This document shows positions 1,073 to 29,303 of a stretch of 29,303 nucleotides of DNA, piece by piece. The notes under the pieces were generated by a model. That model was not told the origin of the DNA, ran no database searches, and was given only the letters and a program-made list of their open reading frames with translations. The translations under genes were made by a program, and so were the position numbers. Within the stretch, counting starts at the first letter, position 1, and every line of letters begins with the position of its first letter. This DNA comes from a virus: positions 1 to 29,303 of the IMG/VR virus record IMGVR_UViG_3300042402_000700; one strand, given 5' to 3'.

Positions 1073-1106
1073 TTTGTTGTGTATTCAAAAGTTTAGTATA
1101 GATTTG
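1073..1106 (+). promoter_or_regulatory. Rightward early promoter (Bacteroidota type)
   Basis: A TTTG at 1073-1076 is followed after 22 bases by TAGATTTG at 1099-1106, matching the Bacteroidota TTG/TAnnTTTG housekeeping promoter with spacing in the flavobacterial range. Transcription would start near 1113, about 40 bases before the first early gene. The same TAGATTTG box recurs at 15975. Confidence 0.65.
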
Positions 1107-1813: not shown

Positions 1814-2044
1814 ATGAACAATGAAAGAGCCAATTTTTACAAATCAATTTTTCTCTTTGAAGAAGAAGTACACATTCTTATTGACGGAATCATTACCGCA
1901 CAAAATTACTATGGTAATCAAAAGAACGGGACATTGTCTCGGGATCAATTGTGCGACCAACGAATTGCAGAACTTGAACGAGTATTCGTCAAAATTAATA
2001 GGTCGTATTGGAAAGAATTACCAGAGCCACCAAAAGAAAAGTAA
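1814..2044 (+). CDS. Hypothetical early protein, 76 aa
   Basis: A mainly helical, charged protein with no recognised motif. A competing ORF starts at 1821 in the next frame and runs on to 2180. The 1814 frame looks like the real one over 1814-2044 because its composition is protein-like throughout, whereas the 1821 frame here is Lys/Ser/Thr/Asn-rich and shadow-like. After 2044 the situation reverses (see the next entry). Confidence 0.55.
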   Translation: MNNERANFYKSIFLFEEEVHILIDGIITAQNYYGNQKNGTLSRDQLCDQRIAELERVFVKINRSYWKELPEPPKEK

Positions 2045-2194: not shown

Positions 2195-2479
2195 ATGTAC
2201 AACCCAAAAATCACTTATCACTTTTCAATGGACGACGTTAAGCGTCTGAATGAAGAAATAAAAGGCATCGCAGAAAACTTTCACGAAGAAGAAACAGGTT
2301 GGTTTCAAGAAAATAAAGGTCGTCAGTTTACAGACGAAAACGGAAACACTTTCGACTTCGATATTCTTGGACGCTTCTTCCGCGCTGACGAACCAAACTT
2401 CGATCTTCACTACATTCGATTGAAGAAAGACGGAATAATCTTTGAGTTCGACTACCGAATCTTTCAAGACCATATCTAA
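2195..2479 (+). CDS. Hypothetical early protein, 94 aa
   Basis: Acidic protein with N-terminal helices (about residues 10-35) and a beta-rich C-terminal half (FDILGRFFRADE, then IRLKKDGIIFEFDYRIF). No known motif. It starts at an ATG after an AAAATCAAAATCAAA leader typical of this genome, and its stop directly abuts the next ATG at 2480. Confidence 0.7.
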   Translation: MYNPKITYHFSMDDVKRLNEEIKGIAENFHEEETGWFQENKGRQFTDENGNTFDFDILGRFFRADEPNFDLHYIRLKKDGIIFEFDYRIFQDHI

Positions 2480-3315: not shown

Positions 3316-3340
3316 AACTTAACGAATCAAAATCAATACA

Positions 3341-3634
3341 ATGAAAAAATTAGTATCACTTGAAAAGCGCGTTGAGAATCTACTGAAGAAGTATAAATTT
3401 CTCCGCAACAACAACAAAGCACTCTGCGTAAAAATTTGGGAACAACAATTCGATGAACGCAAAGACATAACAAGCAACTTCTTCGCTATGTACGAAAGCG
3501 GAAAGTATGTAAGCGCGGACAACATCACACGAATAGCACGTTTAGTTAAGGAACACAATCCAGAACTACGCGGAACGAACCACGCTACCAATAAGAAGAA
3601 AGAGCAGTTAATTAAACCACTATTAAAGAAATGA
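3341..3634 (+). CDS. Hypothetical protein, 97 aa
   Basis: Basic helical protein with an N-terminal coiled-coil-like segment (LEKRVENLLKKYKFLRNNN), then a compact part (YVSADNITRIARLVKEHNPELRG) and a Lys-rich tail. The layout resembles small DNA-binding proteins of phage replication modules, but I cannot name a family. Its stop overlaps the next start as ATGA, and it lies directly upstream of the DnaA-like gene pair. Confidence 0.7.
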   Translation: MKKLVSLEKRVENLLKKYKFLRNNNKALCVKIWEQQFDERKDITSNFFAMYESGKYVSADNITRIARLVKEHNPELRGTNHATNKKKEQLIKPLLKK

Positions 3635-3870
3635 ACAAACAAATTTATTCAACTCCATTCGGTCGCCTTGTCAAGATTAACTTCAAGACGATGCAGAACT
3701 TTAAGAATGTTCTCCGCATAAGCGATCCAACAGCACGTCTTTACGTTACGCATCCAGAGCGAATGAGAATCAAAGACTTCAACAACATTTGCCTTCACAC
3801 AGGTCTTTCACGCGAAGAAGTTTTTTCAACCTTTACACCTACAATTTTAATCAACGAAGAAAATGACTAA
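3631..3870 (+). CDS. Hypothetical protein, 79 aa, possibly DNA-binding
   Basis: The segment from about residue 45 (MRIKDFNNICLHTGLSREEVF) reads like a helix-turn-helix: two short helices with a turn at HTGLS. The N-terminal half (FGRLVKINFKTMQNFKNVLRISD) could be an oligomerisation helix. It sits between a basic helical protein and the DnaA-like gene, overlapping both neighbours (four and eight bases), so a role in replication control is plausible but unproven. Confidence 0.65.
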   Translation: MNKQIYSTPFGRLVKINFKTMQNFKNVLRISDPTARLYVTHPERMRIKDFNNICLHTGLSREEVFSTFTPTILINEEND

Positions 3871-4396
3871 CGAACAGATAAGACAGCAAATAGTAGATAT
3901 GATTCCTTTTGCACATATGGAAAGATTCGAAACACTATGGACGATGCTAACCCCGAAATATGAACGTTTGAGTATGGAACAGATTAAACAACAACAGGAA
4001 CTCGAGAACGAAAGAGAAGTATTCTGGTCAGCACTTGAAGACGTTGTGTGTAGCGTTGTAGGTATTCAATCGCAAATGCTTTATACTCCAACAAGAAGAC
4101 GCGAGATAGTAACAGCACGACAAATTATTTTCTTTCTTGTGCGTCCTTGTTATTTTCAAAGTTTTCATTCGATAGGTAAGCACTACGGCAAAGACCACGC
4201 AACGGTAATGCACGGAATAAAGCAGGCGACGTGGCAGATTGAATGCGACAAAAGCTACGCTGCAACTGTTGAAAGAATCTGCGAATTGATGAACGCGATA
4301 GGTTATGCTAAACCTATTAAATTTTTCACTAAGTTTGTCGAGCATATCGAACACCAAAAGGAACTCGAAGCAAAAAGAAAAGCCAAACTCAAATAA
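3863..4396 (+). CDS. DnaA domain-IV-like replication initiator
   Basis: Of 177 residues, about 80-130 match the C-terminal DNA-binding domain of DnaA: REIVTARQIIFFLVR, then an IGKHYGKDHATVMHGIK segment corresponding to the DnaA signature that reads the DnaA box. The AAA+ ATPase domain of cellular DnaA is absent. The N-terminal 75 residues are helical and probably form a coiled coil, and the tail is Lys-rich. The likely role is recognition of the phage origin, or mimicry of host DnaA to recruit the host helicase. No helicase or polymerase is encoded, so recruitment of host enzymes is the natural model. I found no convincing DnaA-box cluster to pair with it. Confidence 0.82.
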   Translation: MTNEQIRQQIVDMIPFAHMERFETLWTMLTPKYERLSMEQIKQQQELENEREVFWSALEDVVCSVVGIQSQMLYTPTRRREIVTARQIIFFLVRPCYFQSFHSIGKHYGKDHATVMHGIKQATWQIECDKSYAATVERICELMNAIGYAKPIKFFTKFVEHIEHQKELEAKRKAKLK

Positions 4397-4406
4397 ATCA
4401 AAACCT

Positions 4407-4595
4407 ATGAAAGACTATTGCAGATATTGCGATTCAGAACAAATCGAAGAACGTATTGCAGACATTAAAAACACCAACAGAAAATATCGTGACTGGGACG
4501 ACAGCGATGTGCAGGAGTTATTCGAAGACGAAATAGGACTTTGTTATGAATGTACTCGCGAAGAAAACGCAGACTTTGAAAGGGACGAATACTAA
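4407..4595 (+). CDS. Small zinc-ribbon-like protein, 62 aa
   Basis: I use the ATG at 4407, just downstream of the DnaA-like gene; a longer frame from 4305 exists but overlaps the DnaA-like gene and translates as low-complexity Ser/Lys/Asn. The protein has CRYC at residues 4-7 and CYEC at about 46-49, separated by an acidic, Trp/Asp-rich middle. Two CxxC pairs suggest one zinc site. Function unknown. Confidence 0.65.
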   Translation: MKDYCRYCDSEQIEERIADIKNTNRKYRDWDDSDVQELFEDEIGLCYECTREENADFERDEY

Positions 4596-4602
4596 AACTA
4601 AA

Positions 4603-5004
4603 ATGATGCTAATACTACAACTAAAAAAGAGAATCGAGATTCTCGAAGCGCAAGTACAAGAACTATTGAAAGCGCAAACGCAACCCGCTCAACTTCCAGT
4701 ACCAATAAAAGAAAAGAAGTCGCCATTCGTCAAACCAACCGTTGTCGAAATATACGAATACGCGTGTGAGAAACTAAGCAACGACGACGCGTTAAAGTTT
4801 ACCGAGAAATTTCATGCACACTACGAGGCGAACGGTTGGAAGGTGGGAAGGAACGCGATGAAAGATTGGAAGGCTGCCGTTCGTAAATGGGACTTGTCTA
4901 CCTTTGTAACAACAAACCAAACAACAAAAATCAAAAATGGAAAATTCGACTCCGATGCTGCGCAACGCATCTACAACGACGCTCACAATTACACAAAGGG
5001 TTGA
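4603..5004 (+). CDS. Replication-region protein with coiled coil and W/K-rich domain, 133 aa
   Basis: Translation most likely starts at one of two adjacent ATGs at 4603, after an A-rich leader. Residues 4-25 form a leucine-zipper-like coiled coil (LILQLKKRIEILEAQVQELL). A Pro-rich linker follows, then a domain with VVEIYEYACEK, ALKFTEKFHAHYEANGWKVG and MKDWKAAVRKWD. I know this last motif from Bacteroidota phage replication proteins next to DnaA-like or DnaD-like genes; a replisome-organiser role is inferred. Its 3' end overlaps the next gene by 68 bases in another frame. Confidence 0.7.
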   Translation: MMLILQLKKRIEILEAQVQELLKAQTQPAQLPVPIKEKKSPFVKPTVVEIYEYACEKLSNDDALKFTEKFHAHYEANGWKVGRNAMKDWKAAVRKWDLSTFVTTNQTTKIKNGKFDSDAAQRIYNDAHNYTKG

Positions 5005-5692: not shown

Positions 5693-6678
5693 ATCACGGA
5701 TCGTTATTTAGCGGAATCGGTGGATTCGATTTAGCCGCTGAATGGATGGGGTGGAACAATACATTTCATTGTGAATGGATGCCTTTCCCACGCAAAGTTT
5801 TAAGTCATTATTTTCCCAATTCAATTAGTTATGAAGACATTACAAAGACAGATTTCTCTATTCACAGAGGAACAATTGACATACTCACAGGCGGATTTCC
5901 TTGTCAACCATACTCAAGCGCAGGTAAGCGACTTGGGAAAGAGGACGAGCGACACCTCTGGCCGCATATGCTCAGAGTCATTTCAGAAGTTAAACCAACC
6001 TACGTCGTGGGCGAAAACGTTCGTGGACTTACTAATTGGAATGGGGGAGTGGTCTTCGAAGAAGTGTGCGTTGACTTGGAAAGTCAAGGGTACACCGTAC
6101 AACCGATACTTTTGCCAGCTTGTGCCGTTGGTGCGCCACACCGAAGAGATAGAGTTTGGTTCGTCGCTTACAATGCTGCCTACTCCAATAGCAGGAGATT
6201 GGAAAGGTCAGAAGAGGTCGGACGGAACAGCATCAATGCTGAGTGGGAAAGCGAGTTTGGGACTACTTCCAACACCTTGCGCGTTCGACAGCACGAATGC
6301 TCGTGCGACAATGAAAAGCAGTCAAATAAAAGAGGGTTCGATGCACTCAATGACATTGCCGAGGATGTTGGAAATGGGATTACTTCCAACTCCAATGGCA
6401 TCGGAAGGAACGAAGTTAAGTGGAAATCCAAAAGAGAATCAAATGTCAATGACAAAAATAGCTTACGAAATGACTGGCAAAACTTCCCAACTCAATCCCC
6501 GATTTGTGGCGGAGATGATGGGCTTCCCACCCAACTGGACGGAATTACCTTTTCAAAGTGGAGACAAGAATCTATAAAGGGTTATGGAAATGCAATCGTT
6601 CCGCAGGTAGCCTATGAAATTTTTAAAGTAATTGCTGAAATGGACAGGTTAGAAAAACTACAACTAAAACTATTTTAA
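5689..6678 (+). CDS. DNA (cytosine-5) methyltransferase
   Basis: A 329-residue enzyme with the ordered C5-methyltransferase motifs. Motif I is SLFSGIGGFDLA (5-16, S-adenosylmethionine binding). Motif IV is GGFPCQPYSSAG (68-79, with catalytic Cys72). Motif VI is ENV (109-111), motif VIII is RRDRVWF (152-158), and motif X is GNAIVPQVAYEIF (300-312). It methylates cytosine in phage DNA, probably against host restriction; target specificity cannot be read here. Residues about 165-260, where the target-recognition region should lie, are oddly rich in Asn/Ser/Arg/Glu and look unconserved. A second ORF in the +1 frame spans codons 48-296 (see next entry). No cognate restriction gene is visible. It overlaps TerL by one base. 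Confidence 0.95.
   Translation: MNHGSLFSGIGGFDLAAEWMGWNNTFHCEWMPFPRKVLSHYFPNSISYEDITKTDFSIHRGTIDILTGGFPCQPYSSAGKRLGKEDERHLWPHMLRVISEVKPTYVVGENVRGLTNWNGGVVFEEVCVDLESQGYTVQPILLPACAVGAPHRRDRVWFVAYNAAYSNSRRLERSEEVGRNSINAEWESEFGTTSNTLRVRQHECSCDNEKQSNKRGFDALNDIAEDVGNGITSNSNGIGRNEVKWKSKRESNVNDKNSLRNDWQNFPTQSPICGGDDGLPTQLDGITFSKWRQESIKGYGNAIVPQVAYEIFKVIAEMDRLEKLQLKLF
5831..6577 (+). CDS. Overprinted LPTP-repeat protein inside the methyltransferase gene
   Basis: A 248-residue ORF lies wholly inside the cytosine methyltransferase gene, in the +1 frame. It does not look like a random shadow. It has an ATG start, LPTP motifs at residues 116-119, 146-149 and 185-188, each followed by a short polar segment (for example AGDWKG), and a C-terminal LNPRFVAEMMGFPPNWT at 221-237. 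Its N-terminal half has SWAKTFVDLLIGMGEW and KKCALTWKVKGTPYNRYFCQLVP. From memory, similar LPTP/MGFP sequences occur beside or within cytosine methyltransferase genes of other phages; I cannot verify that here. Where this frame is richest in motifs, the methyltransferase frame is low in complexity. Its role is unknown: an accessory or specificity partner of the methyltransferase is one idea. Confidence 0.68.
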   Translation: MKTLQRQISLFTEEQLTYSQADFLVNHTQAQVSDLGKRTSDTSGRICSESFQKLNQPTSWAKTFVDLLIGMGEWSSKKCALTWKVKGTPYNRYFCQLVPLVRHTEEIEFGSSLTMLPTPIAGDWKGQKRSDGTASMLSGKASLGLLPTPCAFDSTNARATMKSSQIKEGSMHSMTLPRMLEMGLLPTPMASEGTKLSGNPKENQMSMTKIAYEMTGKTSQLNPRFVAEMMGFPPNWTELPFQSGDKNL

Positions 6679-7988
6679 TGCAACCATACAAACCCGAATA
6701 CCTACCGCGTCAAATCGAAGCGTTGAACTACTTGAACACCGACAGCATCGTTGAGCAATTGTTATACGGTGGCGCGGCAGGAGGTGGGAAGACTAAGTTC
6801 GGTTGTATGTGGCAGATTCAAAGACGATTGAAATACGCAGGGACGCGTTCGCTTATCGGACGTAGCAAATTAGACACATTAAAAAAGACGACGTTAAACA
6901 CGTTCTTTGAAACAGCGCAAGACTTTGGTTTGGTTGCGGATAAACACTACACATACAACGGTCAATCGAATATCATTAAGTTCTTCAACGGAAGCGAAAT
7001 TGTCCTAAAAGATTTGTTCAGCTATCCCTCAAACCCGAACTTCGACCAACTTGGGTCGATGGAGCTCACAGACTATTTTATAGATGAAGTTTCAGAGGTT
7101 AGCGAAAAGGCGGTCAATATCGTTCACTCGCGTTGTCGTTATAAGTTGAACGAGTTCGGTCTTATTCCGAAAGGCTTCTTGTCTTGCAATCCTTCGAAAG
7201 GTTGGTTGTATAATGAGTTCTACATGAAGAACAACCGCAACGAACTACCTTCACACCGCGCATTTGTTCAAGCGTTGCCGCAAGACAACCCCTTCCTTCC
7301 TGTTGCTTACATCGAATCGTTGCGAAGACTTCCCGAATACGACCGTAAAAGACTTTTAGAAGGGAACTGGGAGTTCGACGACGACAGCGACAAGCTATTT
7401 CAAACGGAGAACTTGCTACGAATGTTCCGCAACGAAGTAATCAATGAAGGAAAGAAGTATATCACAGCCGACATTGCGCGTTTTGGTAAGGATAGAACGA
7501 TTATTATTGTTTGGGAAGGTCTAACTATCATTGATATAATTGAGTTGAATAGAGCAGCGTTGGATGAAGTCGTGAACAAAGTTCGTTTAACCTGTCAACA
7601 GCACGCAATTTTATTGCAAGACGTAGTGTGCGACGAAGACGGAGTTGGTGGTGGTGTGGTTGACTTCTTGAAATGTCGAGGGTTTGTCAATGGATCAAAA
7701 CCAAAGCACCCACAATATCAAAACTTAAAAAGCGAATGTTATTACAAACTCGCTCAATACGTCGAAGAAAACAAGGTAACGATTCTATCCAGTACACGCA
7801 AAGAACAAATCATTCGTGAATTAGAAATGATTAAGCGACATCGCGCAGATGTAGACGGAAAGTTACAGGTCACACCCAAAGACGTAATTAAGAACCGCGA
7901 AGGTATTTCTCCCGACGTTGCCGACGCTATAATGATGAGAATGTATTTTGAACTTAATCCAAGTTATGGACAGTACGTTGTCGGTTAG
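6678..7988 (+). CDS. terL: Terminase large subunit
   Basis: A 436-residue packaging motor. The N-terminal ATPase has Walker A GGAAGGGKT (31-39) and Walker B YFIDE (133-137) with the catalytic Glu. The C-terminal RNase-H-like nuclease has ADIARFGKDRT (Asp265), CDEDGVGGG (Asp319/Asp321) and SPDVADAI (Asp413/Asp416). It cuts replicated phage DNA and pumps it into the prohead through the portal. Length and motif order fit a complete enzyme. It is encoded in the early operon on the opposite strand from the portal and from the TerS-like gene (27753-28166). Its ATG overlaps the methyltransferase stop by one base. Confidence 0.96.
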   Translation: MQPYKPEYLPRQIEALNYLNTDSIVEQLLYGGAAGGGKTKFGCMWQIQRRLKYAGTRSLIGRSKLDTLKKTTLNTFFETAQDFGLVADKHYTYNGQSNIIKFFNGSEIVLKDLFSYPSNPNFDQLGSMELTDYFIDEVSEVSEKAVNIVHSRCRYKLNEFGLIPKGFLSCNPSKGWLYNEFYMKNNRNELPSHRAFVQALPQDNPFLPVAYIESLRRLPEYDRKRLLEGNWEFDDDSDKLFQTENLLRMFRNEVINEGKKYITADIARFGKDRTIIIVWEGLTIIDIIELNRAALDEVVNKVRLTCQQHAILLQDVVCDEDGVGGGVVDFLKCRGFVNGSKPKHPQYQNLKSECYYKLAQYVEENKVTILSSTRKEQIIRELEMIKRHRADVDGKLQVTPKDVIKNREGISPDVADAIMMRMYFELNPSYGQYVVG

Positions 7989-11715: not shown

Positions 11716-13401
11716 TTATGAGTATTTAAGTGAACCGCGTGTTGGTGTGTTAATTGGAGCAACACCTTCAGCTCCTTTTTGTGGTACAAATGGATTGTTA
11801 CCTACGCGCTTATCATTGTTTAATCCGTCGTTAGGTAAAATACGTCCTTTTGAATCTCTCTTTCTGATATAGATTTGACGCTTCCAAAAGTGGTGGCAAA
11901 AACAACCGCCTTTCCAAATGAAGATATTATAAGAAGAACTTCCTTCTGGAGCAAACTCTCCGTTTATTCCTGCGTCGCTCATTTCTTGAATGTCTTCGTA
12001 ACGAAAAGACAAACCTGCCTTTGATAAGTCAACCATTTCTTGACAAAACTCACGACTATTTTCGCTTAAATTTTGAGAGTAAGCGTAACGCAATTTATAA
12101 AGTCCTGTGTCACCAAATGCAGACCTTTCGTCCGCGTTTGCATAACTACGAACACTCATATATTCTTGACGGAAATTAGCTTCGTTGTGTGGGTCTGTTA
12201 CATCTTCTTCGCTTAATAATTCCCACTCGTTTAAATCTACTATTTCAGCTTTCTCTTTCAGAGTGTTAATCCAAACACGACCTTGTTCGTCTGAAAAGTC
12301 ATTCTCAGCAGCAACTACTTTTTTTTTTAACTCAGCAGTTTGCACCGTTGGTTCAACAACTACAACTTCGGGGTCAAAAGGCGAGTTCATTTCGATGTTT
12401 ATTTCTCCTAAAATTGGAGTGAAAACACGTTCAATGATTCTTTGATAAGGTTTGATTACTTGGTTGTTGAATATCTCTAAACCTACCAACATTTCGTCTT
12501 TGTTCGAACCGAATCCTGTCGTGTCGCGTATGCCGTGAATCAATGGTGACACAACGCGGTGTCCGACCATAATTTGCTTCGCTGTTTCTTCAGATAAAAA
12601 CTGATATTGCTTATCTGCATCACTAAGTGGGAACGCTTCGATTTGTGGAGCGCGTGCAGGATCTTCGTTGAAGGTCATTAAGAACTTACCCGCGTTACTT
12701 GCACCGCTCAATCTTGTTTCCCACTCGCGACGAATAGCCTCACGTTCTTCTTTCTGCGGTATGCCATTCAAAAAGTTAATGATGAATGAAGGGAATAAAC
12801 CATTCAATATATTGTTAACGTGGTAAAGTCCCATTTGATAGGACAATTCAACGTAATTTAACGCTCCGAAGTAGTCGGGTTTAGGATAGTAAACACTTCC
12901 TGCACTCATTCCGTGCGCGTAAATAACTTGACGCGGTTGTTCTTGTGCTATTGAAGGGTTGAACGCAGGAATAAACTCTGGCTTACCTCTTTTGCTTCTT
13001 GTATTAGCCCAATCTTTCGAGTAGAAAATTCCTGTAATGTCGTCTTCTTCTTTGTCGTATGCAAGTCTGCAATTCTCAAAAGGCAAGTGGTTTATTTGTA
13101 CAACGCGTGTAAAGTCCATAGACCAAATTACTTCGGCAACAAATGCGCCTTGAAGTTTTAAATCGAAGGCAATACCTTGCAAAGCGTTGTCGAGAATAGT
13201 TCCCGTACCTTGTCCTTCAATCATATAAGAGATTGAGTTCACCAACGCGTTGTGAATTGGTGAGTTTTGGTAAAGGTTTATAAGGTGTTGAGGGAATAAG
13301 TTGTTTTGTCCGTAGTCAATCCAACCGCTTCTGTTCTCTTTTTCAATCGCCTCAACTGGCTGATATAATGAAAGGTTAATTGCTTGTATATTGTTTTCCA
13401 T
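11716..13401 (-). CDS. Portal protein with Cys/His-rich C-terminal extension
   Basis: A 561-residue portal-type protein. Residues about 20-350 form the portal core: NSPIHNALVNSISYMIEGQG, INHLPFENCRLAYD, LNYVELSYQMGLYHVNNI, then SEETAKQIMVGHRVVSPLIHGI and NKDEMLVGLEIFNNQVIKPY. The core ends near the VEPTVQTAELKKK segment. A further 200 residues follow with SREFCQEMV, FAPEGSSSYNIFIWKGGCFC and HHFWKRQIY, a domain I associate with portals of Bacteroidota phages and with head-morphogenesis (MuF-like) regions. The portal forms the DNA gate at the capsid vertex. An A10 run encodes Lys359-361 at the domain boundary (see findings). Confidence 0.9.
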   Translation of the reverse strand: MENNIQAINLSLYQPVEAIEKENRSGWIDYGQNNLFPQHLINLYQNSPIHNALVNSISYMIEGQGTGTILDNALQGIAFDLKLQGAFVAEVIWSMDFTRVVQINHLPFENCRLAYDKEEDDITGIFYSKDWANTRSKRGKPEFIPAFNPSIAQEQPRQVIYAHGMSAGSVYYPKPDYFGALNYVELSYQMGLYHVNNILNGLFPSFIINFLNGIPQKEEREAIRREWETRLSGASNAGKFLMTFNEDPARAPQIEAFPLSDADKQYQFLSEETAKQIMVGHRVVSPLIHGIRDTTGFGSNKDEMLVGLEIFNNQVIKPYQRIIERVFTPILGEINIEMNSPFDPEVVVVEPTVQTAELKKKVVAAENDFSDEQGRVWINTLKEKAEIVDLNEWELLSEEDVTDPHNEANFRQEYMSVRSYANADERSAFGDTGLYKLRYAYSQNLSENSREFCQEMVDLSKAGLSFRYEDIQEMSDAGINGEFAPEGSSSYNIFIWKGGCFCHHFWKRQIYIRKRDSKGRILPNDGLNNDKRVGNNPFVPQKGAEGVAPINTPTRGSLKYS

Positions 13402-15373: not shown

Positions 15374-15931
15374 TTATTTTTTAAGATGAAATAAGAAACG
15401 CTCCTCAGCCGACATTTTAGCGTATGGCTTAGAAGGTGTTTGTTTTGCTTGCTTTACTTCTTTGATTGAAGACGCAGCAGGTTGTGCGCTTAATTTTGTT
15501 ACTTCGCTCGAAAGTTCTGCGTTTGCCTTTTTAGCTTCAGCAAGTTCGCTTTCCAACTTAGCAACTAACGACAAAAGTCCTTCAACCTCTGCGCTTAGTG
15601 ATTCAGTCGAAGATTGTTCTTCTTCGATTACTACTTCAACCTCTGGCTTTTCTTCTTCCATTGGTTTCAATTCGGTTACAACACCGTCAGCCACAACGAC
15701 AATAATACTTTCAGCTGTCTTGTATTCTCCGTCCATTAACGCAACCTCGTTTCCTTCTGCGTCTTTGCCGAATACACGAACACCTGCTGCCCAAACGTCG
15801 CTGTCTGAATAGATGCTTGTACCGTCCTCTAAAATCGCTTCAACCATTTGCTTCACCTCAACTACTTCTTCAGCAGATAGGCTAACATTGTGTTTTGCGA
15901 ATAGAGCGTTTACTTTTTCTCGTAAATTCAT
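15374..15931 (-). CDS. Scaffold-like coiled-coil protein, 185 aa
   Basis: I choose the ATG at 15931 (MNLREKVNALFAKHNVSLSAEEV); the frame is open to 16003, but that extension translates a leader that carries promoter-like elements on the other strand. A small folded region (about 40-90) is followed by an acidic Glu/Val segment (KPEVEVVIEEEQSS), a coiled coil (about 115-150) and a basic tail (KQAKQTPSKPYAKMSAEERF). The acidic-coil-basic layout directly before the capsid gene is typical of assembly scaffolds. A structural role in the mature particle cannot be excluded. Confidence 0.7.
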   Translation of the reverse strand: MNLREKVNALFAKHNVSLSAEEVVEVKQMVEAILEDGTSIYSDSDVWAAGVRVFGKDAEGNEVALMDGEYKTAESIIVVVADGVVTELKPMEEEKPEVEVVIEEEQSSTESLSAEVEGLLSLVAKLESELAEAKKANAELSSEVTKLSAQPAASSIKEVKQAKQTPSKPYAKMSAEERFLFHLKK

Positions 15932-15949
15932 AATTCTGTTAATTGTTTG

Positions 15950-15982
15950 TTTGATTAGTATATATAAAACTTCGTAGATTTG
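15950..15982 (+). promoter_or_regulatory. Plus-strand promoter inside the late operon
   Basis: TTTG at 15950-15953 and TAGATTTG at 15975-15982, 21 bases apart, match the Bacteroidota promoter and the early promoter box at 1099-1106. It points against the surrounding genes. A Rho-independent terminator on the same strand ends at 16059, so the pair brackets a short transcript. Confidence 0.55.
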
Positions 15983-15989
15983 TTTCGTA

Positions 15990-16059
15990 ATTGAACTTTT
16001 CATAGGTTACAATTTTGATTTTTGGTTTAGACGGGGGAGTGATTACCCCCGTTTTTTTT
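15990..16059 (+). ncRNA. Predicted small RNA, about 70 nt
   Basis: The start is inferred about 7-8 bases after the TAGATTTG box, and the end is the T run of the terminator. The transcript lies almost wholly in the gap between the scaffold-like gene start (15931) and the 58-codon gene stop (16058). It would be antisense to the leader of the scaffold-like mRNA and could base-pair with it. No ORF of note lies within. It is a prediction from flanking signals only. Confidence 0.4.
16031..16059 (+). terminator. Rho-independent terminator on the plus strand
   Basis: ACGGGGG (16031-16037) and CCCCCGT (16046-16052) form a perfect 7-bp stem with an 8-base loop, followed by eight T residues to 16059. 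On the minus strand, the direction of the surrounding genes, the hairpin is followed by CTAAACC and lacks a U run. It is therefore oriented to end plus-strand transcripts. Its T run overlaps the stop codon of the 58-codon minus-strand gene. Confidence 0.75.
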
Positions 16060-16234
16060 ATCCCAAATTGTCAAGAATAGTATTCAGTATCTTCAACTCG
16101 TCTTCGTTCAATCCATACGTCTTAAAACCCATTTTACCGCCCTCATTAGTAATCTTCGTGAGTGCGTTAAGAAACAGGTTTGCGTCGTCGTTGAATAGTT
16201 CGACCTTTAGAAACCCCCCTGCTTCGATGTTCAT
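16058..16234 (-). CDS. Small conserved-looking protein in the head module, 58 aa
   Basis: Starts at ATG 16232-16234 with AAGGAG a few bases upstream, one of the few good Shine-Dalgarno sites here, one base after the protease gene stop. The peptide (MNIEAGGFLKVELFNDD..., then a helix NEDELKILNTILDNLG) looks well folded. It sits between protease and scaffold-like genes. Function unknown; it could be a head-assembly accessory protein. Confidence 0.65.
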   Translation of the reverse strand: MNIEAGGFLKVELFNDDANLFLNALTKITNEGGKMGFKTYGLNEDELKILNTILDNLG

Positions 16235-16235
16235 C

Positions 16236-16817
16236 TTATTCTCCTTTTAGAATCAATTCTAATTCTTCAATTAAGGTCGGTTGCTGTTCGCTTAAATACA
16301 TTTCTTTCTCAGCTATAAAATTTCCTTCGATTGAGAACCCAAGAACTTCTTTGTTTTGAATCTGTTGTTTCACTTCTTCGTTGTCCACTTTCATGCAACC
16401 GAACCAAGTACCTTCTGGAAGGTCAAAGCCGAAGTTTTTAGACTTGTCGTTTTCACCTTCGATAATCCAAGTTTCAACAAGACTAACTCCGTCAACAACT
16501 TTCGCGTGTTCAACTGTTGCGTTGTTTTGGTTTGCTTGCTTCAAGTAGTTGTAAGCGATAGCGCGAATAGTGTCCTTAGAATACTTAACGTAGTATTCCT
16601 CGTCTGTTTCGTCGTTGCGTCTGTAAATGAGTTGGTCGGGAATAAGCAACGCTCCGTACAAAAGACCTCTAAAGTCTTCTTTGAACTTCACGTTGTGTTG
16701 TTCGCTTAATGCCACGAAGTCTACTCCGATAGCAGGTTGTTCTACAACGCTAATAGCATACACTCCTAATAGTCCTGCGTCGTCTATTCCGTATTCAATA
16801 ACTTTAATTTTTTTCAT
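16236..16817 (-). CDS. Prohead protease, XkdF-like
   Basis: A 193-residue protein matching XkdF-type putative serine proteases: FRGLLYGALLIPDQLIYRRN, YYVKYSKDTIRAIAYNYLK, a conserved His in ATVEHAKVVDGVSLVETWII, then GFDLPEGTWFGCMKV and KEVLGFSIEGNF. Family members process scaffold and capsid during maturation. It precedes the scaffold-like and capsid genes in the usual protease-scaffold-capsid order. The start is ATG 16817, four bases after the tape measure stop. Confidence 0.82.
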   Translation of the reverse strand: MKKIKVIEYGIDDAGLLGVYAISVVEQPAIGVDFVALSEQHNVKFKEDFRGLLYGALLIPDQLIYRRNDETDEEYYVKYSKDTIRAIAYNYLKQANQNNATVEHAKVVDGVSLVETWIIEGENDKSKNFGFDLPEGTWFGCMKVDNEEVKQQIQNKEVLGFSIEGNFIAEKEMYLSEQQPTLIEELELILKGE

Positions 16818-16820
16818 TTT

Positions 16821-18635
16821 TTATCCTCCGAGTTTAGATTGATTTTGAATTAATTGTTGTGCTTCTAAGTTGCTGCTCACTTGACTACTCACAACGTACG
16901 CTTGTAGCGGTGGTTGTTGTTGCCCTGGTTGGTTGCCTAAGAAAGCGAAGTTGGCAGGTGAAGGTGCTGTTGTACCGCCTGCGCTTGGAACGCTTCCGCC
17001 ACTACCGCTTCCGCCACTTGTACCCCCACCGCCTTGAAACTGTTGTTTTGATATTATAGCCACACGAGCAAGACCTTGAGCAATTGCTAATCCTGCTGCT
17101 ACTGCCGCACGAACAGGAGCGTCGGGGGTTGATATAGCCATTTGCGAACGATACGCGCCTTGTGCTGCTAAATAAGTGTCTATTGTAGCCGTTGCAATAC
17201 TCACACCTTTTTGTATTTGAAACGCTTTTCTTTGTTGTCTTTCGCTGTCTCCTGCAAATGCTCCTGCTAAGTCGCTAATAATAGACAAAGAAGTTCGCAT
17301 AGCGTCTACGCGAAGGTTTGCTTTTGCTTCTTCTGCCCTTCTTAAATCTTCAACTTCTTTCTGTGATTGTTCCGCTCTTAATGCTGTAAGTTTCGCGTGT
17401 CCTTCCATTTCAGCAAGAAGTTTCGCGTCTGCTCTTTTCTTCAATTCTTCATAACCGATAGATGCCATTCGCTCATCTTCAGCCAACATTTCGTCGTTTA
17501 ATTTTTTACGACGCTCCAACTCTTTGTCGTCCGCTTCTTTTTGTAAACGTTCGTTTTCGTCGTTCTCTTTTTTTATTTGGTCTTTCTTTGCCTTTGCTGC
17601 GTCAGAATCCATTTTTTGAACAGACAATTTCAACCCTGCGTAGTCGTTCTCCATTGTAGCAATGGCATCTTTATTCTCTTGAATGGTTTTATTCAATTCA
17701 GTTTCTAACTCTTGAGGATCTATTAATAATCCTGCGGCTAAATCGGTAAAACCTTCAGCGAGATTACTGTCTACACCAACAACTTTAGCTATTTCGTCAA
17801 CAGCCGTTAAAAGAAGTTGAAGCGGAGCGGTAAGAAAGCGAATAATTCCTTCAAGAATTTCTCTGTTTCTTTTTGCCGTTTGAACCTGTGTAATGGCTTG
17901 CTTTTCGGTAATTGCTAATTGTGCTTTCCTGTCAGCTATTGCAGTTTCTAACGCTTTAATTTTGATATTTAAAATCTCGCGTTCGCTCTTTCCTTGTAGC
18001 TTTAATATGTTAGACTGTTTGTCTATGTTTTCGTATGCCTTTTGCGATGCGTCAGCTTTTGCTTTTGATATAGCAAGACTTTCTCTTTCTTGTTCATTGA
18101 TTCCAGAAAGACCACTTTCAACAGAAGGGAAAAGTTTTATTAAATCGTCAAAGTTTGCAATGATTAAAGCGACAGCACCTGCAAGTAAAAGAATAGGGTT
18201 GGCTATAATTGCTTTAGCTAACGACGCAAAGCCACTAACTAAACCACCTATCTCATTTTTTAAAGTCTTAAAATCAATTTTGGATACATTCGCACCCATA
18301 TTTTTTAAAGCCTGTCCTGCTCCTGCTAAGTCTAAGTCCATTAATCGTGAACCAAACAAACCGATGTTATTCGAAAGACCTTCAAAAGCGTTACCTGCGT
18401 TGGCACTAATCTCTGCGGAAAGGTCGCTTATATTGTCTTTCAATTCAGCAGCACGAGCGGAAGCCTTTTTAAACTCCTCACTCGACCTATCCATTTGTTG
18501 CAACTGATTCTGCAACGCGCGAAGTTCAGCTTTAGCAGAACTAAATCCTTGTGCGGTATTTTGAGCTGCGTCAGCCGTCTGATTAAGGACGTTAACACCG
18601 TTGGTATTTACTATTAAATCAATTGTATTCGCCAT
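16821..18635 (-). CDS. Tail tape measure protein
   Basis: A 604-residue protein with coiled-coil N-terminus (FSSAKAELRALQNQLQQMDR, about 30-80), a hydrophobic segment (about 145-165, IIANPILLLAGAVALIIANF), a second one near 265-285, a long charged coiled coil (about 340-450, Lys/Glu-rich) and a Gly/Ser/Pro-rich region near the C-terminus (about 535-575). Tape measures set tail length and reach the host membrane at DNA entry. At roughly 0.15 nm per residue this predicts a tail of about 90 nm. It is the longest coiled-coil protein here, supporting siphovirus morphology. Confidence 0.88.
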   Translation of the reverse strand: MANTIDLIVNTNGVNVLNQTADAAQNTAQGFSSAKAELRALQNQLQQMDRSSEEFKKASARAAELKDNISDLSAEISANAGNAFEGLSNNIGLFGSRLMDLDLAGAGQALKNMGANVSKIDFKTLKNEIGGLVSGFASLAKAIIANPILLLAGAVALIIANFDDLIKLFPSVESGLSGINEQERESLAISKAKADASQKAYENIDKQSNILKLQGKSEREILNIKIKALETAIADRKAQLAITEKQAITQVQTAKRNREILEGIIRFLTAPLQLLLTAVDEIAKVVGVDSNLAEGFTDLAAGLLIDPQELETELNKTIQENKDAIATMENDYAGLKLSVQKMDSDAAKAKKDQIKKENDENERLQKEADDKELERRKKLNDEMLAEDERMASIGYEELKKRADAKLLAEMEGHAKLTALRAEQSQKEVEDLRRAEEAKANLRVDAMRTSLSIISDLAGAFAGDSERQQRKAFQIQKGVSIATATIDTYLAAQGAYRSQMAISTPDAPVRAAVAAGLAIAQGLARVAIISKQQFQGGGGTSGGSGSGGSVPSAGGTTAPSPANFAFLGNQPGQQQPPLQAYVVSSQVSSNLEAQQLIQNQSKLGG

Positions 18636-28538: not shown

Positions 28539-28540
28539 TT

Positions 28541-28573
28541 TATGTCATTAAATTTATTAGTATGTCACTAAAT
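28541..28573. repeat. Direct repeat pair, 20-base period
   Basis: TATGTCATTAAAT (28541-28553) and TATGTCACTAAAT (28561-28573) differ at one base and lie exactly 20 bases apart, immediately upstream of the first late gene. Two turns of the helix separate them, so a dimeric protein could bind both. Possible operator or iteron-like site. Confidence 0.5.
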
Positions 28574-28685
28574 ATGCAAAGAAAAGAAAAGAACAAAGAA
28601 AACGTGTAAGCACTTTAAAGAAAGAACAAAAGAAAAAGCTCCCCCAAAAAGATTACTCTCGCCCTTAAAAGGGCAGTTGCTCGTT

Positions 28686-28847
28686 CCAAGCATTGGTGTA
28701 TTGCAAGTGTGGTCATTGGTTACTTCGCTGTGACTTACGAAGGCGGTTTGTGTTCTTATCCAGTTTGTTTCATTTACTTAAAAAATATACCCCCAATTAT
28801 TTCAGCCGCCAAGCAAAAATAAAAGGGGGTAGTTTCGCAATGCTTGG
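28686..28847. repeat. 10-base perfect inverted repeat in the leader
   Basis: CCAAGCATTG (28686-28695) and its exact complement CAATGCTTGG (28838-28847) are separated by 142 bases. The right arm also forms part of a nearer pairing (28803-28814 with 28842-28850), so the two structures compete. Confidence 0.5.
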
Positions 28848-28849
28848 CT

Positions 28850-28881
28850 GTAACAAATATACTTTGAATGTCAATTGTTAC
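28850..28881. promoter_or_regulatory. Dyad operator over the late promoter
   Basis: GTAACAA (28850-28856) and TTGTTAC (28875-28881) are perfect inverted 7-mers 18 bases apart. The left arm overlaps the -7 box and the right arm the -33 element. A dimer bound here would cover or contact the polymerase. I did not find a second copy elsewhere. Confidence 0.6.
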
Positions 28882-28883
28882 AA
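28854..28883 (-). promoter_or_regulatory. Leftward late promoter
   Basis: On the minus strand, TTG (28883-28881) is followed after 19 bases by TATATTTG (28861-28854), the best Bacteroidota promoter in the window. A TTGACA-like element lies between. Transcription would start near 28847 and read the whole structural operon. Confidence 0.7.
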
Positions 28884-28890
28884 CGATAAG

Positions 28891-29303
28891 TTATTCACCT
28901 ATTTCAACATCTTTCATTGATTCAAGAAACGTATTTATGTCTTTCTTCACACAAGGCGGACAAGTTGAACGCTCGTTAAACGCTCCTGTGGCTTTATCCT
29001 TGAACGAATAGAACTTCAGCATATCTTTCTGCTCAAGACGTCCTTGCGCCTTCATATCGAGCAAGAAACGTTTAAACTCTATTTGTTCCTCAATAGAAAG
29101 AACACCTTCCCATTTAGACGCGGGACAAGAAGCGAACGCTAACTTTGCTTTTATCGGCATTACACAACCACAAAGTTTTATCGACTTGCGACGAAACAAT
29201 ACTTCGGTTTCTACTTCTTCGCCAACGATCAAAGTTCCGCAAGACTGCGTTGAAGGTTCGAAGAATTTACAGGTGCGACAAATTTCTAACCTGCGTTTGT
29301 ACT
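28891..29303 (-). CDS. Cys-rich zinc-binding-like phage protein, 3' part
   Basis: Continuation of the 144-residue protein that starts at 149 across the contig join (bases 29177-29303 duplicate 1-127). This part carries CGC (residues 52-54), ASCPASKW (Cys67), a helical middle (IEEQIEFKRFLLDMKAQGRL) and CPPC (122-125). It is the last gene of the leftward nuclease-sigma operon and stops only seven bases before the late promoter's -33 element, so read-through could feed the late operon. Confidence 0.85.
   Translation of the reverse strand, partial: YKRRLEICRTCKFFEPSTQSCGTLIVGEEVETEVLFRRKSIKLCGCVMPIKAKLAFASCPASKWEGVLSIEEQIEFKRFLLDMKAQGRLEQKDMLKFYSFKDKATGAFNERSTCPPCVKKDINTFLESMKDVEIGE
29177..29303. 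repeat. Terminal direct repeat, right copy
   Basis: Exact copy of positions 1-127. See the left copy; the two should be counted once. Confidence 0.95.

Follow-up and report, generated by a model that had tools for sequence, protein, structure and literature searches.

A promoter and a terminator facing against the head genes

Does the short gap between two late genes of an uncultured virus encode a small RNA on the opposite strand and, if so, which messages would such an RNA meet? The window (i.e., the whole stretch of DNA analyzed here) is a virus record of 29,303 bases with early-type genes on the plus strand at around 1.1 to 8.6 kb and a long series of head, tail, and other genes on the minus strand, including the following landmarks of the record:

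6678-7988: terminase large subunit (PHROGs)
11716-13401: portal (PHROGs)
15374-15931, minus strand: scaffold-like protein of 185 aa, the late gene downstream of the RNA gene (ATG at 15931)
16058-16234, minus strand: conserved ORF of 58 aa, the late gene upstream of the RNA gene (its stop overlaps the end of the T run)
16236-16817: head maturation protease (PHROGs)
16821-18635: tail tape measure (PHROGs)

The name "scaffold" for the 185-aa protein is our own reading of its gene place and coiled-coil look. This protein and the protease match opposite ends of a single 349-aa family (phrog_24921), and the unit that they form (15374-16817) is split by the 58-aa ORF and the RNA gene in the lineage of the window. 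Many relatives (e.g., L029, L042, and L084) carry an extra stretch of ca. 335 nt between the protease and the 58-aa ORF that is absent in others. Among the early genes, the one at 3863-4396 encodes a protein with a DnaA C-terminal (DNA-binding) domain (Pfam PF08299) that is possibly a replication initiator. No nucleotide relatives were found among named phages, and the only protein relatives among these are the Nonlabens phages P12024L/S, in which protease and scaffold form one ORF without a gap (a single ORF in P12024L). These relatives, together with the promoter type described below, suggest a Bacteroidota host. When 84,980 genomes of bacteria and archaea were scanned with a pattern for host or prophage copies, the single match, found in a Gammaproteobacterial MAG, had neither the -7 box nor the T run and was judged to be due to chance.

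The interval of the predicted RNA lies exactly between two minus-strand genes, that of the 58-aa ORF and that of the scaffold-like protein. The features of this locus and the two other promoters of interest are:

15950-15982, plus strand: promoter of the Bacteroidota housekeeping (sigma-ABfr) type, TTTG, 21 nt, TAGATTTG, read directly
15987, plus strand: predicted transcription start, a purine, 4 nt past the -7 box
15987-16059, plus strand: predicted non-coding RNA of ca. 73 nt
15997-16003, plus strand: TTTTCAT (complementary to ATGAAAA), an element that 61 of 73 relatives share
16013-16028, plus strand: conserved single-stranded core TTTTGATTTTTGGTTT, complementary to early-gene leaders and unpaired in the predicted fold
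16031-16059, plus strand: intrinsic terminator with a 7-bp stem, an 8-nt loop, and T8
1073-1106, plus strand: early promoter with the same -7 box
28861-28854, minus strand: predicted late promoter TATATTTG, of the same class as the early promoter

Both signals on which the initial annotation had built its proposal of a plus-strand small RNA can be read directly from the plus strand, i.e., TTTG at 15950-15953 followed by 21 bases and TAGATTTG at 15975-15982 as well as a perfect 7-bp stem (ACGGGGG at 16031-16037, loop AGTGATTA at 16038-16045, and CCCCCGT at 16046-16052) with eight T at 16052-16059. They also face against the surrounding genes as described there, the neighbors being minus-strand ORFs, and the -7 box is indeed that of the early promoter, where TAGATTTG recurs at 1099-1106. 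This box fits TAnnTTTG/TTTG, the consensus given for Bacteroidota housekeeping sigma promoters in PMC7366714. Transcription of F. johnsoniae genes is described in PMC6847099 to start 4 to 5 nt after the -7 element; the same source states that G in the third box place is nearly absent from F. johnsoniae promoters and that the box was revised to exclude it. The third place is G in the window (and in 14 of 73 relatives overall), which counts against a strong promoter. The timing of the RNA does not follow from the box shared with the early promoter, since the predicted late promoter belongs to this class as well.

Taken alone, each of the two signals is unremarkable in the window: the promoter pattern is found 4 times compared to a mean of 1.69 (7 of 100 shuffles reach 4), and terminator-like hairpins are not above chance (19 versus a mean of 16.4, sd 4.0). 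Scanning for sigma-70 promoters, the wrong promoter type, performed no better than on shuffles. Around 310 to 360 nt of non-coding sequence (28540-28900, minus strand) separate the late-type promoter TATATTTG from the first late gene and contain the palindrome GCCCTTTTAAGGGC, a close form of which lies upstream of an ORF in relative G001. In 29 of 73 relatives (such as L016 and L124), the spacer between the -33 and -7 elements contains an inverted repeat, TTTAGnnnCTAAA, that overlaps the RNA promoter and is possibly an operator.

Conservation of the probable RNA gene among relatives

The combined unit of promoter and terminator occurs once in the window and nowhere on either strand of 614 kb from distant relatives. 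Among close relatives, 86 distinct protease-to-capsid regions (window included) vary in length outside the gap from the stop of the 58-aa gene to the scaffold ATG, which itself measures 124 to 127 nt in all 86. These regions reduce to 73 distinct gaps, and every one of them has the -7 box GTAnATTTG(TTTC) (GTAnATTTGTTTC) without exception, followed by a purine at the start site (G in 34, A in 39), a pyrimidine, and AATT; the T run is also kept. The -33 element is TTTG in 37 gaps, TTTA in 35, and neither in one, so that TTT(G/A) is found at a fixed spacing in 72 of 73. Conservation of box, stem, and spacing, which the initial annotation proposed to compare among relatives, is borne out for the -7 box, for the spacing, and through compensatory pairs for the stem, and only in part for the -33 TTTG; no relative among the 73 keeps the hairpin without the -7 box, an outcome that favors its small RNA. 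By sequence, the small RNA gene would have a promoter of its own in this -7 box and the TTT(G/A) spaced from it.

Searches with capsid and protease brought up 148 loci, of which only 15 are without a complete unit, all of them cut off by a contig edge, and a pattern scan of viral contigs found at least 119 stretches. Altogether, 240 copies were found in 256 loci that overlap, so that these copies are not independent phages; both neighbor genes flank 236 of them, and the other 4 end at a contig edge on the side of the small gene. For 24 records picked from loci already linked to the RNA family, the count of 24 out of 24 tells only that each has exactly one copy. No promoter-terminator unit is present in distant capsid relatives, for which 80 loci were assessed in order of their similarity to the P12024L capsid, and the top match of the covariance model in distant relatives (E 0.019) lies elsewhere, downstream of the capsid gene.

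The stem, its types, and its covariation were analyzed on the 59 distinct RNA sequences among the 73 gaps. Changes on both sides are seen in 4 of its 7 pairs (75 cells), with 99.3% of cells paired and none of 500 shuffles doing as well, so the covarying stem and the T run would by sequence provide the RNA with its own terminator. The hairpin comes with one of four matched stem types, apart from a recombinant with a mismatched stem (L076:1398-1470), where CGGAGGG faces CCCCCGT. Among relatives, stem types occur in changing combinations with upstream types, which suggests recombination inside the RNA gene, and the RNA body carries indels. In the predicted fold (z -2.95), the 73-nt RNA has a weak stem at its 5' end, an unpaired core rich in U, and the terminator. 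On the plus strand, no ATG-started ORF of at least 20 aa begins inside the RNA, as fits a non-coding RNA, and one TTG-started ORF of 21 aa (16015-16080) crosses the terminator. None of 4227 Rfam families matches the RNA at gathering score, and no tRNA was found.

Box positions show no synonymous change except at the one free base. Comparable codons, i.e., degenerate ones with an invariant amino acid, are rarely invariant as DNA (only 1 of 30 in the 58-aa gene and 10 of 143 in the capsid gene), which places the constraint on the box at the level of DNA or RNA. Judged from the conserved promoter, start purine, terminator, and spacing, a plus-strand RNA of the proposed length of about 70 nt is strongly supported, and we consider it very probable that the feature is a real, independent small-RNA gene of a Bacteroidota-type phage lineage. 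Transcription itself could instead be what matters, with the convergent promoter interfering with or timing the late operon and the RNA as a by-product; the unit does oppose the surrounding late genes for head and tail, yet an invariant core and a conserved loop would be left unexplained, and we regard this as quite improbable.

The scaffold leader on the opposite strand

The position of the RNA opposite the leader of the scaffold-like gene, another claim of the initial annotation, is confirmed, and because the late genes and the predicted late promoter are on the minus strand, the RNA is by position fully complementary to the late mRNA. The main rival to the reading that we favor below builds on this arrangement: a cis-antisense RNA, pairing from end to end with the part of the late mRNA that separates the 58-aa and scaffold genes, would block an upstream start of scaffold (ATG 16003 or its equivalents) or elicit cleavage by RNase III and in this way set the level of scaffold and capsid. 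Its anatomy would be analogous to that of P22 Sar and lambda OOP. Upstream, the scaffold frame stays open without any indel in 65 of 65 distinct regions (in the window up to the ATG at 16003), and 71 of 73 gaps have an in-frame upstream ATG. This upstream stretch may be translated; in some relatives, the RNA covers such an in-frame ATG. However, the near end of the RNA is 55 nt upstream of the well-conserved scaffold ATG (15931), and the supposed N-terminal extension shows no constraint at the protein level, with heterozygosities of 0.246/0.220/0.234 at codon positions 1/2/3 compared to 0.041/0.022/0.258 for true scaffold codons. Moreover, the leader ATG is out of frame with scaffold in 17 of 73 relatives that still keep the element complementary to it: of the 61 carriers of TTTTCAT, 44 have it in frame and 17 out of frame, which fits an anti-start element better than a start of scaffold. 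Cis-antisense action alone would also leave the fit to early leaders (see below) unexplained, and overall we see it as a possible but less probable function. The tuning of the capsid module suggested by the initial annotation is kept possible by the antisense position, while the sequence evidence points more to early leaders, which it did not name as a target.

These same data bear on the idea that only the minus strand is constrained, as a leader of early type with the start of a scaffold extended at its N-terminus, and that the plus-strand signals are incidental. The open frame, the upstream ATGs, and a leader-like motif on the minus strand would agree with it; the box, the start purine, the U run, and G-U pairs at the stem base fit the plus strand only, and both the codon-position test and the 17 out-of-frame cases speak against it, making this the least probable of all explanations.

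The conserved core matches leaders of early genes

The core parts TTTGATTTT and GGTTT are present in 73 of 73 gaps, and this unpaired conserved core is the complement of a signature of early-gene leaders, AAACC..AAAATCAAA..AUG. In its DNA form, AAACC..AAAATCAAA..ATG, the signature is common to early leaders (in the window at 1795-1816, 2178-2197, and 3320-3343) and seldom seen in other phages or in late genes. Aligning the RNA to the start regions of the window picks out early leaders with AAAATCAAAATG and AACC elements, and the predicted early targets are:

1814-2044, plus strand: 76 aa, leader AAAAACCAATAAATCAAATG, AATCAAA in 13 of 17 orthologues
2195-2479, plus strand: 94 aa, leader AACCACTAAAAATCAAAATCAAAATG, AATCAAA in 21 of 21 orthologues
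3341-3634, plus strand: 97 aa, leader GAATCAAAATCAATACAATGAAAAA, AATCAAA in 10 of 14 orthologues
4407-4595, plus strand: 62 aa, leader AATAAATCAAAACCTATG, AATCAAA in 6 of 8 orthologues

The best-scoring widely kept start, +4937 (AATCAAA in 21 of 21 orthologues), is doubtful and may not be a true start because it lies inside another ORF (4546-5004). Orthologues are not independent, and the leader signal amounts to about five gene families; protein-family searches with four of the five proposed target genes (1814, 2195, 3341, and 4937) gave nothing useful. With early and late genes taken from simple strand-based ORF calls, AATCAAA is found in 92 of 392 early leaders compared to 25 of 580 late and 7 of 426 distant starts. 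In some relatives (L427:547-616 and L404:1969-2041), the leader of the 97-aa gene has a hairpin, GAGAGGG..CCCTCTC, before AAAATCAAA..ATG, and this order of parts matches the minus strand of the RNA gene.

The predicted duplex energy of nt 1-46 of the RNA with the early starts of its own genome is better than the dinucleotide-shuffle mean in 21 of 21 genomes, 20 of which are the first 20 of the 24 records already linked to the RNA family. Mean z across the 21 is -2.86 for early starts (-0.68 to -5.03) and -0.76 for late starts, the latter calculated without the RNA's own locus (one start dropped in 20 of 21 genomes). For the window alone, z is -2.48 for 16 early starts (4 of 300 shuffles) and +0.31 for 25 late starts, and a target search by energy alone was not decisive there. 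When leaders were matched for a high A content, six representative RNAs gave z of -2.6 to -6.0 for early leaders (0 of 40 shuffles each), compared to -1.3 to +0.1 for late leaders and -1.7 to +0.75 for distant relatives.

A covariance model built solely from the RNA sequences and run over the genomes recovers 21 RNA genes (E 6.7e-11 or better) followed by 42 weak matches, with no second copy of the RNA in these genomes; the secondary matches are mostly early start regions. Out of these 42, 38 are antisense to the early strand and 35 fall on early start codons versus 12.5% expected. The share on start codons is 6 of 34 in distant relatives and 8 of 28 in four other, named flavophages that were added as controls because the distant control loci are mostly head regions. 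The core is thus conserved, predicted to be unpaired, and complementary to several leaders, as a multi-leader seed would be. Co-variation of RNA and targets was not seen: pairing energies of own minus other types are around zero (-1.2 to +1.9 kcal/mol per early gene), and the variable base (T/A) before GGTTT has no matching change in leaders.

The starts of the four named flavophages give z of -3.75 and -4.02 with 2 of the 6 RNA types while the other four types fall short of -2, suggesting that the fit is partly generic to A-rich leaders. A real RNA may act on host mRNAs with phage-like A-rich leaders, as the initial annotation also suggested, and leaders of Bacteroidota are described as A-rich in PMC6847099. 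This seems improbable to us, though not as much so as mere interference by transcription, since the phage's own early leaders fit more strongly and do so with all six types.

A proposed early-to-late role for the RNA

The explanation that we favor, with somewhat less than even confidence as a whole, is that the RNA is a trans-acting repressor of early translation for which the late mRNA is a sponge. In a first step that is well backed by the sequence, host RNA polymerase would read the plus-strand box and make an untranslated RNA of ca. 73 nt that ends at the hairpin and T run. Its core UUUUGAUUUU-GGUUU, usually with UUUUCAU upstream, would pair with the early start signature AAACC..AAAATCAAA..AUG, and pairing of RNA and leader would lower the translation of early genes. 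The late polycistronic mRNA, transcribed across the RNA gene, would contain all 73 nt of the RNA in perfect complement and may absorb or destroy it (as a duplex, through RNase III) when the late genes are switched on. That class-wide early shut-off and a late-mRNA sponge together form a two-way early/late switch, with one 73-nt sequence used on both strands, is a more speculative and rather unlikely version. Acting against early leaders, the reading we prefer, and acting in cis on the leader of a longer scaffold, the less probable one, are compatible, and one RNA could do both.

The RNA gene is kept in every relative with a contig that covers the site, within the head operon of an uncultured lineage that probably infects Bacteroidota. 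If the RNA acts on early leaders, it would be a class-wide translational switch for the infection cycle. To our knowledge, Shine-Dalgarno pairing is not in use in the Bacteroidota phylum, and we know of no sRNA chaperone there; the proposal, if true, would show how RNA regulation works in a setting for which no use of Shine-Dalgarno pairing or of Hfq is known. Start site, length, seed, and targets are all specified to the base, which makes for a sharp prediction.

Comparison with known systems

A few enterobacterial phages are known to carry small antisense RNAs that have their own promoter and control lysis or lysogeny. Our literature search found no report of the RNA described here, though absence of reports is not proof. 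Trans-encoded bacterial sRNAs use a short, unpaired, conserved seed against several leaders and have an intrinsic terminator at the 3' end; the RNA predicted here shares this plan of seed and terminator but is encoded by a phage. Bacteroides is described as having no obvious Hfq or ProQ homologue (PMC7366714), leaving no known chaperone for the RNA.

Among phage RNAs, P22 Sar and lambda OOP appear nearest in anatomy. Like the RNA predicted here, P22 sar is presented in PMC13397905 as a small antisense RNA in an intercistronic region, directed against the neighboring ant mRNA, and the title of a reference cited there gives it a promoter of its own, as is also predicted for our RNA. It differs in that no sequence relation was found, that our RNA lies in a Bacteroidota-type head operon, and that the core of our RNA also fits several early leaders. 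The same source describes another phage small RNA beside a coat gene, P22I, which is on the same strand as coat, whereas our RNA is antisense. Lambda OOP is likewise a unit of promoter, RNA, and terminator opposite an operon for which RNase III cleavage of the mRNA:RNA hybrid was proposed (PMC5869508). As stated there, OOP overlaps the coding end of cII by 52 bases, while the RNA predicted here falls between late genes, its only overlap with them being at the stop of the 58-aa ORF. Nearest in action would be c4 of P1/P7, a phage antisense RNA described in PMC12197685 as blocking a ribosome binding site; according to that source, c4 targets a single mRNA by means of RNA loops, whereas the core of our RNA is predicted to be unpaired and fits the leaders of several early genes.
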